A DNA stretch of 9,495 bases from Actinomycetes bacterium (lineage in GTDB: Bacteria > Actinomycetota > Acidimicrobiia > Acidimicrobiales > RAAP-2). The translations under genes were made by a program, and so were the position numbers. The number at the start of each line of letters is the position of its first letter. The stretch's first letter is position 1. Shown here in pieces: positions 5,422 through 8,777 of the stretch. Where the stretch lies: NCBI GenBank assembly GCA_021849435.1, contig JAJZSX010000066.1, positions 1-9,495 on the forward strand, written 5' to 3'. Under the pieces are notes generated by a model. It saw nothing but the letters and a program-made list of their open reading frames with translations, was not told the origin of the DNA and did not search any database.

Positions 5422-6330
5422 TTACGACGGAACGAACACGTTGTCAGGAACGTTCGCTGTTCGTACGACCTCTTGGAGCAGTGCGTGGATCGCTCGCACC
5501 GGGGCGGCCGGAAACCCGAACCGTCGACTAACGAGGCTGACCCTTCGCCGAGCGATGCCTTCGACGTGTACGGCGACGAAGTTATCTCGAAGGTGCTGCG
5601 ACAGCATGGTGGCCGGCAGGATCGACGGTCCGTAACCGTCAAAGGTGAGTGACGCGATCGTGCGCAACCCGTCCAACTCGATGATCGGCTGCAGGGTCAC
5701 TCCGTGGGCCACGGCGGCCTCGTCGATCTCTCGACGCAGCGGTGTCCCCTGGAGGGGCAGCAGGAGCGGCAGGGTGGCGAGCGTAGCGAAGTCCACGCTG
5801 CGCTGGGCGGCGAGCGCGTGCCCGCGGGGCACAATCAACACCAGGTCTTCGCTGAACAGGTCGACGTCGGTGAGTTCGGGTGTGAAGACGGGCCACGCGA
5901 GCACGGCCAGGTCGAGTTGCCCATTGACGACACGGGGTTCGAGCGCCGAATTCGTTCCTTCGCTGATCCGAATCGCGATGTGGGCGAACGAGCGGCGCTG
6001 GGCTTCGATGAGCAGGGGCACAATCCATCGTCCCGCCGTGCCAATCATTCCGAGATTGACTTCGCCGCGGATGTCGGCGTTCAACTCGGACACGTCTGCG
6101 GCGATCGCGTTAAGTTCGATGAGGATGCGCCGTGCTCGGTGCAGGACCACGGAACCAGATTCGGTGATCGAACCCGTGGAACGGTCCACCAGTTCCGAGC
6201 CGAGCTCGGATTCGAGTCGGGCGATCCGGTTCGAGATGTTGGACTGGACGGTGCCGAGCGCGTCGGCGGCACTCGAGAAGGTTCCATGATCGGCGATGCC
6301 GACGAGGGCCTCCAGTTGACGAATCTCCAC
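5422..6330 (-). CDS. LysR-type transcriptional regulator
   Basis: From the GTG at 6330 this is a 302-aa LysR-family regulator of normal length. It has an N-terminal winged helix-turn-helix (about residues 3-62, with RQLEALVGIADHGTFSSAA, TVQSNISNRIARLESELG and LVDRSTGSITESG) and a substrate-binding effector domain (about 90-290, starting RGEVNLGMIGTAG and including DLVLIVPRGHALA). The frame is open to ATGs at 6363 and 6384, but these would add residues with no family counterpart and would place the TATAAT box inside the coding region. GTG 6330 gives the classic LysR beginning and sits six bases after that box, so the mRNA is probably leaderless. The gene heads the operon and is divergent from the small RNA promoter, the arrangement typical for a LysR target. 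The inducer is unknown. Confidence 0.92.
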   Translation of the reverse strand: MEIRQLEALVGIADHGTFSSAADALGTVQSNISNRIARLESELGSELVDRSTGSITESGSVVLHRARRILIELNAIAADVSELNADIRGEVNLGMIGTAGRWIVPLLIEAQRRSFAHIAIRISEGTNSALEPRVVNGQLDLAVLAWPVFTPELTDVDLFSEDLVLIVPRGHALAAQRSVDFATLATLPLLLPLQGTPLRREIDEAAVAHGVTLQPIIELDGLRTIASLTFDGYGPSILPATMLSQHLRDNFVAVHVEGIARRRVSLVSRRFGFPAAPVRAIHALLQEVVRTANVPDNVFVPS

Positions 6331-6336
6331 GTATCG

Positions 6337-6342
6337 ATTATA
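6337..6342 (-). promoter_or_regulatory. Leaderless promoter (-10 TATAAT) of the lysR operon
   Basis: Read on the minus strand, a perfect TATAAT is followed by CGATAC and then the GTG start, so transcription should begin at or one base from the initiation codon. This is the usual geometry of actinobacterial leaderless genes. No Shine-Dalgarno precedes the GTG, which agrees. The -35 region (about 6360-6365) is weak, suggesting activator dependence or autoregulation. Confidence 0.65.
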
Positions 6343-6344
6343 GA

Positions 6345-6376
6345 GATAGCAGGTATCCCTCATATCATGTTGATGA
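6345..6376. promoter_or_regulatory. Candidate LysR operator dyads between two back-to-back promoters
   Basis: GATAGCAGGTATC (6345-6357) is a GATA-N5-TATC dyad, and it extends imperfectly to GAGATA-N5-TATCCC. TCATGTTGATGA (6365-6376) is a perfect TCAT-N4-ATGA dyad overlapping the -35 of the small RNA promoter. The tetramer TATC recurs at 6332, 6354 and 6363, with GATA at 6345, so GATA/TATC units from 6345 onward repeat every 9 bp. A T-N11-A frame exists at 6365-6377. LysR regulators usually bind such interrupted dyads upstream of divergent targets. That this regulator binds here is inference. Confidence 0.4.
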
Positions 6377-6398
6377 ATGGCCATCGGGTTGGCATACT
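6370..6398 (+). promoter_or_regulatory. Promoter of the 6C-like small RNA
   Basis: TTGATG (6370-6375) and CATACT (6393-6398) are separated by 17 bp, a good sigma-A-type pair. The start would be about A6405, shortly before the first stem of the small RNA. The -35 lies next to the -35 region of the opposing lysR promoter, so the two promoters stand back to back and could be co-regulated. Confidence 0.55.
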
Positions 6399-6404
6399 GG
6401 TCTC

Positions 6405-6490
6405 AGCCTGTTTACAACGAATCCCCCCTCGAAGTAAACCAAGGTTTTGCAAAAGGACCAACCACCCCCCCGGTTGGTCCTTTTGCGTAT
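6405..6490 (+). ncRNA. Probable 6C small RNA (two C-rich hairpin loops)
   Basis: The predicted transcript is about 80-86 nt. Hairpin 1 has stem GTTTAC (6410-6415) with GTAAAC (6434-6439), a symmetric AA/AA internal loop, inner CGA (6418-6420) with TCG (6429-6431), and loop ATCCCCCC (6421-6428). A short purine-rich linker containing the palindrome TTTTGCAAAA follows. Hairpin 2 has a perfect 15-bp stem (6449-6463 with 6472-6486), loop ACCCCCCC (6464-6471), and ends in T-rich sequence as a terminator. Two stem-loops each carrying six or more cytosines define the actinobacterial 6C RNA family (B11 in M. tuberculosis). From family knowledge, such RNAs act in trans by base-pairing their C-rich loops with G-rich mRNA regions. 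A promoter at the right distance supports the call. The 5' end is inferred from the -10 position, and the 3' end from the terminator. Confidence 0.85.
6449..6486 (+). terminator. Intrinsic terminator forming the 3' hairpin of the small RNA
   Basis: A perfect 15-bp inverted repeat (GCAAAAGGACCAACC with GGTTGGTCCTTTTGC) encloses an 8-nt C-rich loop. The GC-rich core GGACCAACC/GGTTGGTCC is flanked by A4 and T4, so it can work as a terminator in both directions. In the plus direction the TTTT directly follows the core stem and ends the 6C-like RNA. Confidence 0.85.
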
Positions 6491-6513
6491 TCCGGCGAAA
6501 TTTCGTACTTCGA

Positions 6514-6867: not shown

Positions 6868-6873
6868 TAGCGT
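6868..6873 (+). promoter_or_regulatory. Possible leaderless -10 element of murT
   Basis: TAGCGT fits the TANNNT pattern and is followed by six bases (GAGTCC) and the ATG at 6880, the same geometry as the lysR promoter. No convincing -35 is seen. An AGGTGAGG at 6856-6863 would be a Shine-Dalgarno but lies 16 bases from the ATG, too far for ordinary use. Confidence 0.35.
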
Positions 6874-6879
6874 GAGTCC

Positions 6880-8091
6880 ATGGCGATTTGGCGCACACTT
6901 CGACTCCAGATCGCGACGACGGCCGTGCGCTCGGCCAACTGGATTTCGTCTCGGACGGGACGGGGCAGCGGGACAGTCATCGGGGGGACGGTAGGGCTCG
7001 CGATCGCGCCGGGGCTGCTCAACGCGTTGGCCGTGCACCGCCGCGTCATCGTGGTCTCGGGGACGAACGGCAAGACGACGACGACCGCCCTCGCCGTCGC
7101 GGGTTGGGGCGACGATGTCGCGTCCAACGACACCGGCGCCAACATGCCCGCCGGCCTCGCCGCCGCGCTCGTGCGCAGTCGATCCCCGCGCGCCGTTCTC
7201 GAGAGCGACGAAGGTTGGCTGGGCGCGAACGTCGAGGCGACGCACCCTGCGGTCATCGTCGTACTCAATCTCTCCCGTGATCAGCTCGACCGAGCGAGCG
7301 AAGTGCGCCAGATCGCTGAGCGCTGGCGCGCCGTCTTTGCGAAGACGGAGTCTCACGAAGCCGTGATCGTGGCCAACGCTTTGGATCCCTTGGTCGTTTA
7401 CGCGGCTTTTGAGGCAGTCAATGTTCGTTGGTGCACACCGCCGACGACCTGGACCGCGGACACCATGTCGTGTCCCCGTTGCACGGCCCCGCTGCATCGC
7501 ACCGAGGAACGGTGGTGGTGCTCGTGCGGACTCGCCCAACCCAGTGCTAGCTCCTTCCTCGATGGCACCACTGCGGTGGTCGGTGGTGAGCGTTTCGAGA
7601 TCCCCGTGTCGCTACCGGGTTCGTTCAATCAAGGCAACGCGCTCATGGCACTCACGGCCCTCGCCGAGGTTGGCGTCGACGTGCGCCGTGCGGCGCTGCG
7701 GATGGCCAGTGTGGACGAGGTGGCCGGGCGCTATGGCGTTCGACGAGTCGACGGTCAGCTCGTGCGACTACTGCTCGCGAAGAATCCCGCTGGCTTCGCC
7801 GCGATGCTCGAATCCATCGCTGGTGAGGGAGAGCTGTGGGTTTCAATCAACGCGAGGGTGGCCGATGGTCACGACCCTTCGTGGCTCTATGACGTGCCCT
7901 TTGAGGTGCTGTGCGGCCGACGAGTCCGGTGTCTCGGTGATCGCCGACTCGATCTCGTGACGCGCCTTTGGTACGCCGGCGTCGATGCATACGTCGATGA
8001 AGGTCCACCGGTGATTGAGGATCGGGTCATCGACGTGCTGGCGAACTACACCGCGTTCAGCGATCTACTCAGGGACTCACAGCCGTGTTGA
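6880..8091 (+). CDS. murT: Lipid II isoglutaminyl synthase (glutamine-hydrolysing), subunit MurT
   Basis: This 403-aa Mur-ligase-like subunit works with GatD to amidate the D-glutamate of the lipid II stem peptide to D-isoglutamine, using ATP and ammonia from glutamine, at the cytoplasmic face of the membrane. Visible features: an N-terminal segment typical of MurT before the P-loop SGTNGKTTT (60-68); the Mur-type central domain with NDTGANMPAGL (83-93) and ESDEGWLG (108-115); a zinc-ribbon insertion with CPRC (Cys198, Cys201) and CSC (Cys214, Cys216); then the Mur C-terminal/DUF1727 domain with KNPAGFAAML (301-310) and INARVADGHDPSWLYDVPFE (323-342). The last motif is where MurT is thought to supply an acidic residue to the GatD catalytic triad. 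The ATG at 6880 aligns with family starts. The 3' end overlaps gatD by 7 bp, indicating coupled, equimolar synthesis. Confidence 0.96.
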   Translation: MAIWRTLRLQIATTAVRSANWISSRTGRGSGTVIGGTVGLAIAPGLLNALAVHRRVIVVSGTNGKTTTTALAVAGWGDDVASNDTGANMPAGLAAALVRSRSPRAVLESDEGWLGANVEATHPAVIVVLNLSRDQLDRASEVRQIAERWRAVFAKTESHEAVIVANALDPLVVYAAFEAVNVRWCTPPTTWTADTMSCPRCTAPLHRTEERWWCSCGLAQPSASSFLDGTTAVVGGERFEIPVSLPGSFNQGNALMALTALAEVGVDVRRAALRMASVDEVAGRYGVRRVDGQLVRLLLAKNPAGFAAMLESIAGEGELWVSINARVADGHDPSWLYDVPFEVLCGRRVRCLGDRRLDLVTRLWYAGVDAYVDEGPPVIEDRVIDVLANYTAFSDLLRDSQPC

Positions 8092-8777
8092 GGATCATCC
8101 AGGTGTATCCGGAGCTATTGGGCACTTACGGAGACGGTGGCAACGGACTCGTTTTAAGGGAGCGGGCCCGGCGACGCGGTATCGACGTCGAGCTTGTCAG
8201 AGCCGACATGGATGACCCGCTGCCCGCGGGCGACATCTATTTGTTGGGCGGAGGCGAGGACGGACCTCAGCGCCTGGCGGTGGCGCTGCTCGAAGAGGCC
8301 GGCTTCTCACGTCGCGTGGCCGATGGAGCCATGGTATTCGCTGTGTGCGCCGGACTGCAGATGCTCGGGTCACGGTTCAGCGTGCAGGGTGACGACGAGT
8401 ACGTCGGGCTCGGTCTCGTCGACGCCGTGACGACGCGCGCGTCCACGCGAGCCGTGGGTGACTTGGTGACCACGGCGGGCGCCAGCACAATGGTGGGCTT
8501 CGAGAACCACGGCGGGGAGACGACGATTGGCGCCGGCGTCGAGCCTTTCGCGACCGTGGCACGCGGACGCGGCAACGACGGTCGATTCGACGGATTCCGC
8601 GTCGGACGGATCTGGGCGACTTACGCCCACGGCCCGGTCCTTGCCCTCAATCCTTGGCTTGCCGATGCCGTACTCGCGGAGTCACTCGGTCTAAGCCAAC
8701 TCACGCCATTGCCGTCGGTGGCCGACCAACTTTACGAATCGCGGTGTCGTGTGCTCATGGGGCGGTTGGCCGATTGA
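8085..8777 (+). CDS. gatD: Lipid II isoglutaminyl synthase (glutamine-hydrolysing), subunit GatD
   Basis: This 230-aa glutaminase subunit hydrolyses glutamine and passes ammonia to MurT for lipid II D-glutamate amidation. It is a class-I glutamine amidotransferase of the CobB/CobQ-like type. It starts with the characteristic YPELLGTYGDGGNGLVL (8-24), then LLGGGEDGPQ (53-62), the nucleophile elbow VCAGLQMLG with Cys88 (87-95), the substrate-region GFENHGGET (138-146), and the catalytic histidine His182 in TYAHGPVLALNP (179-190). The elbow reads CAGLQ where other GatDs often have CGGxQ, a mild change that keeps the cysteine. GTG 8085 is chosen because AGGGA lies nine bases upstream; TTG 8088 is an alternative. 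It overlaps the murT end by 7 bp and overlaps the convergent acyltransferase tail to tail by 23 bp. Confidence 0.96.
   Translation: MLRIIQVYPELLGTYGDGGNGLVLRERARRRGIDVELVRADMDDPLPAGDIYLLGGGEDGPQRLAVALLEEAGFSRRVADGAMVFAVCAGLQMLGSRFSVQGDDEYVGLGLVDAVTTRASTRAVGDLVTTAGASTMVGFENHGGETTIGAGVEPFATVARGRGNDGRFDGFRVGRIWATYAHGPVLALNPWLADAVLAESLGLSQLTPLPSVADQLYESRCRVLMGRLAD

Follow-up and report, generated by a model that had tools for sequence, protein, structure and literature searches.

In Escherichia coli, the gene of the LysR-type regulator OxyR lies divergent from that of the small RNA OxyS, which is under its control, and GcvA and GcvB of enterobacteria likewise consist of a LysR-type regulator and a divergent small RNA, the seed of GcvB being GU-rich. 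Activation from about −54, combined with autorepression, is common among LysR proteins. In Gram-positive bacteria, RsaE/RoxS directs a C-rich single-stranded motif against Shine-Dalgarno sequences. The actinobacterial 6C RNA (Rfam RF01066; B11 in mycobacteria), about 100 nt long in Corynebacterium glutamicum, consists of two hairpins with six or more cytosines each, the last of them in the terminator (PMC4046766, PMC10470900, PMC12395582). It was demonstrated by Northern blotting in C. glutamicum (PMC4046766), and in mycobacteria repression by the B11/6C loops involves base-pairing with the G-tracts of ribosome-binding sites (PMC10470900, PMC12395582). Mycobacterium marinum B11 also has a third stem-loop, which is not C-rich (PMC12395582). 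The control of 6C is partly known, a link with GlxR in C. glutamicum being mentioned in one report (PMC4046766), and two others pose as an open question why 6C/B11 is kept while its targets change (PMC12395582, PMC9569102). No report linking 6C with a LysR-type regulator, or describing 6C from Acidimicrobiia, was found in the open-licence literature, a body of text outside which most subscription papers lie; one apparent co-mention of 6C RNA and LysR concerned LysRS.

The locus considered here lies in a 9,495-nt stretch of DNA, the whole of which is called the window below. Like 6C/B11, its predicted RNA has two hairpins with loops of at least six cytosines, the last within a terminator-like structure. 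In contrast to 6C, however, it scored below the Rfam cut-off, and it is accompanied by a LysR-type gene and a palindrome, whereas classical 6C loci have HAD or MinD-like neighbours; moreover, some relatives of the new RNA, unlike 6C/B11, have three C-loop hairpins. The window locus shares with OxyR-OxyS the divergent LysR gene, the small RNA and a palindrome between them at an activator position, but OxyS is an unrelated RNA, and the window LysR translated from GTG 6330 contains no cysteine, which argues against an OxyR-type thiol switch. GcvA-GcvB shares the LysR gene with a divergent small RNA, although the loops of the window RNA carry C-runs instead, and RsaE/RoxS differs in structure, taxon and regulator. 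Comparison with related loci suggests that a short regulatory RNA with two C-run hairpins is most likely transcribed from the window, and that this trans-acting, 6C-like RNA is probably controlled by the LysR-type regulator encoded divergently from it.

Structure and conservation of the predicted RNA

The features of the locus are listed in Table 1. The initial annotation had described two consecutive C-loop stem-loops, the second with a perfect 15-bp stem, behind a TTGATG-N17-CATACT promoter. Both stem-loops were present, with a C6 run in the loop of SL1 and a C7 run in that of SL2, so that each loop holds the six or more cytosines that characterise 6C. Folded with its lower stem (6406–6445), SL1 has the loop ATCCCCCC, and its 11-nt arm pair (6410–6439) is 82% complementary. 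The stem of SL2 was exactly as described: its arms (6449–6463 and 6472–6486) are 100% complementary over 15 bp and enclose the 8-nt loop ACCCCCCC. AAAA and TTTT lie in the lower stem, and the 3′ arm terminates in CCTTTTGC, followed by GTATTCC. The fold z of window positions 6402–6492 was −7.7, with 0 of 200 shuffles equally stable, beside the −9.8 given for the RNA in Table 1. Among 300 composition-matched Markov windows, five contained two C6 runs at a distance of 25–60 nt, and none contained a C6 run closed by a stem of 10 bp or more.

Table 1. Predicted features of the LysR/RNA locus and of the murT start, in order of position in the window
Feature	Position	Strand	Basis
LysR-type transcriptional regulator	5422..6330	−	Pfam HTH_1 and LysR_substrate; divergent from the RNA in relatives
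TATAAT, −10-like element of the LysR gene	6337..6342	−	6 nt before GTG, beside the candidate operator; mRNA predicted to be leaderless
Palindromic operator candidate GATAGCAGGTATC, GATA-N5-TATC	6345..6357	.	Between LysR gene and RNA; conserved spacing
−35 element TTGATG of the RNA	6370..6375	+	Sequence; TTG at fixed distance from the operator candidate in relatives
−10 element CATACT of the RNA	6393..6398	+	Sequence; conserved in relatives
Predicted small RNA, about 88 nt	6405..6492	+	Fold z −9.8; covariation in 41 sequences; conserved block ending near 6505
Stem-loop 1 (SL1), C-run 6423–6428 in the loop	6406..6445	+	Fold; covariation in the upper helix
Stem-loop 2 (SL2), terminator-like hairpin, C-run 6465–6471	6449..6486	+	Fold; all alignment cells paired
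TAGCGT, −10-like element before murT ATG 6880	6868..6873	+	Recurrence of TTGTTAGCGT in relatives

The promoter was found at the right distance: its hexamers, separated by a 17-nt spacer, agree with the consensus at 8 of 12 positions, and the predicted RNA would start 7 nt past the −10 element. A consensus scan of the window for promoters and terminators called neither the RNA promoter nor an SL2 terminator; the T-tract after SL2 is short. Longer T-runs follow the SL2 equivalent in several relatives, while SL2 of the window is a 15-bp hairpin that the scan left uncalled. Promoter and SL2 were nevertheless accepted because both are conserved in relatives. At the level of sequence, there is good support for predicting an independent small RNA that has a promoter of its own, a terminator-like hairpin and a 6C-like architecture.

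Loci of relatives were fetched through MurT (the best 80 of 88; except for a few odd labels, all carried that of an actinobacterial metagenome assembly), and RNA loci were chosen from a listing of C-run hairpins where the second hairpin was conserved and lay on the same strand as murT. The RNA recurred at 41 of these 80 Acidimicrobiia murT loci, including one whose contig starts inside it (L028) and one in which the first C-run is C4 only (L009). It was not picked in the other 39, nine of which have less than 1,500 nt upstream of murT and thus leave its absence there unproved. The window, 22 close and 18 more distant sequences were aligned (n = 41; L028 was left out as cut); related loci such as these are not independent samples. 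In this alignment, 95.8% of cells were paired and 16 of 23 pairs had changed on both sides, with 193 double-change cells compared with 68 in shuffles. The covariation score was 0.564, as against at most 0.158 in slid controls, and only 1 of 500 shuffles was as high in the number of doubly changed pairs and of pair types. All six pairs of the SL1 upper helix showed double changes, with 84.7% of cells paired; the corresponding values for SL2 were 9 of 14 pairs and 100%. Loss of the C-runs from homologous loci had initially been named as an observation that would speak against the RNA, but the runs were conserved, with five or more cytosines in 40 of the 41 aligned sequences for the first run and in all 41 for the second, and six or more in 30 and 37, respectively.

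In five close relatives (L001–L005), identity was 84%–99% per 25-nt bin over a block from about 6330 to 6505 and 21%–52% over the rest of the gap toward murT until 6855, where conservation resumes. The 549-bp gap between the LysR gene and murT, which the RNA had been suggested to give a purpose, is thus not filled by it: conservation is poor over the roughly 350 bp that follow the RNA, and a promoter-like element of its own precedes murT. Separately, the hairpin junction (6443–6450, GGTTTTGC) is partly paired and near-invariant in the close clade, and might be a protein-binding or pairing site.

The divergent LysR-type gene and the palindrome

The LysR gene likely starts at GTG 6330, a start of the ORF at 6384 being possible, and solved relatives of its product are distant (best NtcB, 79 bits; OxyR-type, 76 bits). 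Of the 41 murT-set loci with the RNA, 39 had a gene matching the window LysR upstream of the RNA and divergent from it; at the remaining two (L028 and L071), the contig extends less than 30 and 85 nt, respectively, upstream of the second C-run. No match to the window LysR at E 1e-8 was found in the 39 murT loci lacking the RNA. A covariance model built from the 41 aligned sequences (R1) gave one weak match over the same 39 loci (L060, 24.3 bits). This match (8082–8152, minus strand) is a single C-loop hairpin opposite to the murT strand with the second-clade tail GCGTCCGGGC; it has neither a LysR match nor an operator and was not counted.

Across 198 genomes of the class, R1 matched 45 at E ≤ 0.1, part of them noise. 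A LysR gene adjoined 23 of the 30 class-wide matches that were fetched; two (L081 and L082) were already in the model. Among fetched loci scoring at least 36 bits, the gene was found at 20 of 22, compared with 3 of 8 below this score, which argues that low-scoring matches are largely noise. The seven loci without a LysR match (L090, L094 and L106–L110) were not counted as members. The C-loop hairpin matches at L094 and L090 are possibly unrelated or orphan RNAs.

In the window, the palindrome has its centre at about −54 relative to the RNA and is 14 nt away from the LysR start codon. Across 40 loci (the window and 39 others), GATA-N5-TATC matched at all eight positions in 26 and at seven in 14, whereas shuffled regions reached such matches in 0.1% and 3.75% of cases, respectively. 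The script selected the RNA promoter in 33 of 40 rows, and in these the centre of the palindrome lay 19 nt before the −35 element; in the other seven, the script chose another site, but TTG stands at the same place. Exact sites numbered 26 in 885,643 nt, all of them at the RNA promoter and not independent of each other, against 2.8 expected from base composition. With respect to the LysR start, the palindrome stood 10 or 14 nt away in 56 of 68 LysR loci, and its GAT-N7-ATC form lay upstream in 66 of the 68 (exceptions, L091 and L096), a set that holds L011 and L026 twice, as L082 and L081. In L092 and L095, a tandem pair of GATA-like palindromes lies between the LysR gene and the RNA.

The string operator-N12-TTG occurred once in 20 of 22 genomes and twice in the other two; these genomes had been picked for carrying the exact operator-promoter string, so that its near-uniqueness is the result and its presence a matter of choice. 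The operator-promoter string was found in 70 of the 198 class genomes, mostly away from R1 matches; many of these genomes are small and AT-rich, and chance matches are expected. Of seven places fetched as promising in an operator-led search, five (L127, L128, L129, L131 and L132) held a LysR gene with C-loop hairpins, and all five had been missed or weakly scored by R1. Neither of the other two (L130 and L133) had a LysR gene, and both were set aside as chance matches. The pairing of the predicted RNA with a divergent LysR gene through a candidate operator at conserved spacing is the larger feature of the locus, and it lies beyond the scope of the initial annotation.

A script counted hairpins over 22 LysR loci (L096 was left out; L098, L099 and L131 were ambiguous) and found three C-loop hairpins in eight of them (L093, L097, L100, L102, L104, L127, L128 and L132). 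Seven of these eight were folded, and all seven showed three main hairpins. The predicted number of hairpins is variable, while the C-runs, the LysR gene and the palindrome stay.

Descent of the RNA and other readings of the locus

The initial assignment of the RNA to 6C stood with respect to its 6C-like architecture but not with respect to the Rfam score or, at one classical locus, the orthology of the neighbouring HAD gene. The covariance-model check proposed with that assignment was non-significant: RF01066 gave the window RNA 17.3 bits, where the cut-off is 47 (E 3.7, search over 221 nt), the top match of the same search was a microRNA family (22.1 bits), and the window held no 6C at gathering level. 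Under stricter filters, which can lose weak matches, no 6C passed the cut-off in 50 related genomes or in 100 genomes of the class; over 198 genomes of the phylum, 8 passed it and 16 matched at E ≤ 0.001. A C. glutamicum control gave a match below the threshold, without an indication of its position. The Rfam 6C model is narrow, as this control indicates, and its cut-off thus misses even a species in which 6C was shown by Northern blotting.

It is quite conceivable, although we would stop short of calling it probable, that the RNA is the Acidimicrobiia orthologue of classical 6C, moved beside a LysR gene and diverged beyond the reach of the Rfam model. Such an origin would be compatible with control by LysR and competes with other readings on descent. 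It would fit the shared phylum, the common architecture of two hairpins with at least six cytosines and a terminator-like second hairpin, the result that no other 6C exceeded the cut-off in related genomes, and the likewise sub-threshold score of the C. glutamicum control. The Rfam score, far under the cut-off, speaks against it. When R1 was applied to the 3-kb loci of 16 Rfam-found 6C genes, 14 were matched at the Rfam position, with 9–26 bits and E values from 1e-4 to 1.3 in 49 kb. However, the R1 search over the phylum was rejected as proof of kinship, as its listed matches went up to 34 bits at other places and did not include any of the 16 classical ones. Gene neighbourhood also spoke against orthology. 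A HAD gene adjoins 12 of the 16 classical 6C loci and also the RNA in second-clade loci, but this synteny was discarded after the HAD of one classical locus (L118) best-matched another Acidimicrobiia locus in 13 of 13 genomes, with 49%–52% identity to that different gene versus 31%–38% to the second-ranked gene. It is the second-ranked match that adjoins the RNA, in 10 of the 13 genomes as judged by contig and operator place, and neither twin C-hairpins nor 6C matches were found 5′ of the better match in any of 10 fetched flanks. The orientation of HAD relative to the RNA differs between classical 6C and LysR-linked loci, and a scan of 10 window proteins found no HAD gene.

More tentatively, the RNA may belong to a separate family not derived from 6C, a switch of Acidimicrobiia composed of one LysR and one RNA, with a single operator in most genomes tested and two to three C-loop hairpins; we hold this for possible, with the balance somewhat against it. 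Irrespective of descent, the RNA looks as if it were functionally 6C-like, having the shape of the 6C type in a different regulatory setting.

The position of the RNA ahead of murT-gatD (plus strand, 6880–8091 and 8085–8777; identified by ORFs, NCBIfam and Pfam) might instead suggest that the RNA acts in cis, as a leader or attenuator for the gene downstream, a role for which 6C is typed by Rfam (Cis-reg). The next gene runs in the same direction as the RNA, and many close relatives have a distance of about 65 nt between the second C-run and murT. The downstream gene changes, however, while the LysR neighbour stays: murT follows the RNA in close relatives, whereas in much of the second clade the downstream gene is a HAD-acyltransferase, which intervenes in L035 and L070 (ORFs read) and adjoins the RNA in further second-clade loci (tblastn). 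In the window, moreover, the poorly conserved stretch and a separate conserved element, TTGTTAGCGT, precede murT. This element was present at 12 of 15 murT starts (the window and 11 of 14 relatives), with variants in L007 and L010, and absent in L020. A −10-like element in front of murT itself argues against a murT leader, and we consider a leader function unlikely. Even less credible is a plain bidirectional or intrinsic terminator devoid of regulatory RNA function. The strength of the SL2 hairpin and the AAAA and TTTT of its lower stem would suit termination, but no convergent gene ends at the locus, LysR being divergent, and two to three C-run hairpins, a conserved promoter and a palindrome would be superfluous for this purpose.

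Two further observations concern these genes. murT is seemingly leaderless, with TTGTTAGCGT a few nucleotides before its ATG, similar to the TATAAT six nucleotides before the LysR GTG. The second-clade gene directly after the RNA (L035:4586–5968 and similar) encodes a HAD phosphatase fused to a PlsC-type acyltransferase.

Proposed regulation and its significance

For the preferred reading, a C-loop RNA under the control of the divergent LysR, the following course of events is proposed. LysR would bind the palindrome, activate the RNA promoter from about −54, and repress or limit its own promoter, the −10-like element of which lies beside or within the palindrome. The C-runs of the loops, together with CCCCCUC(C) in loop 1, would then pair with G-rich ribosome-binding sites, thereby blocking translation. 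After the C-run, loop 1 continues with UCC, UCG or UCU in 29 of the 41 sequences, and these continuations, like CCCCCUC(C), are close to the anti-Shine-Dalgarno core. This mechanism is independent of whether the RNA descends from 6C.

Potential target sites were in excess: GGGGGG-N4-9-ATG occurred 172 times in 5 genomes, compared with 104 for the reversed-pattern control, and GGAGGGGG-N3-10-ATG occurred 184 times in 16 genomes, compared with 108. The excess is modest and does not exceed what ordinary Shine-Dalgarno sites could account for. A candidate target was noted post hoc, GGGGGGAGACAAACC standing before an ATG in at least 4 of 5 genomes among the matches listed; the gene behind it was translated in two genomes and was Peripla_BP_6 in both. 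Its duplex with loop 1 had a predicted energy of −21.6 kcal/mol, whereas 500 shuffles had a lowest value of −21.3 (mean −9.9, sd 3.3). The Peripla_BP_6 gene is thus a possible target and a lead only, given that the duplex lies barely beyond the lowest shuffle. In L173 and L170, a gene for a Peripla_BP_6 substrate-binding protein has GGAGGGGGGAGAC before its ATG, with nine-nucleotide complementarity to loop 1, and might be a target.

The predicted RNA is a conserved small RNA so far unlabelled and missed by the standard RNA library, which would place a C-loop RNA, beyond the reach of the Rfam 6C model, in some members of an actinobacterial class. With the LysR/RNA module, a 6C-like RNA gains a neighbouring candidate regulator, together with a directly testable site, and the two- and three-hairpin versions of the module permit asking whether loop number sets the strength of repression. 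If the RNA does represent a separate family, the number of anti-Shine-Dalgarno loops would be an evolvable trait, and 6C-like loops would have arisen more than once in Actinomycetota.
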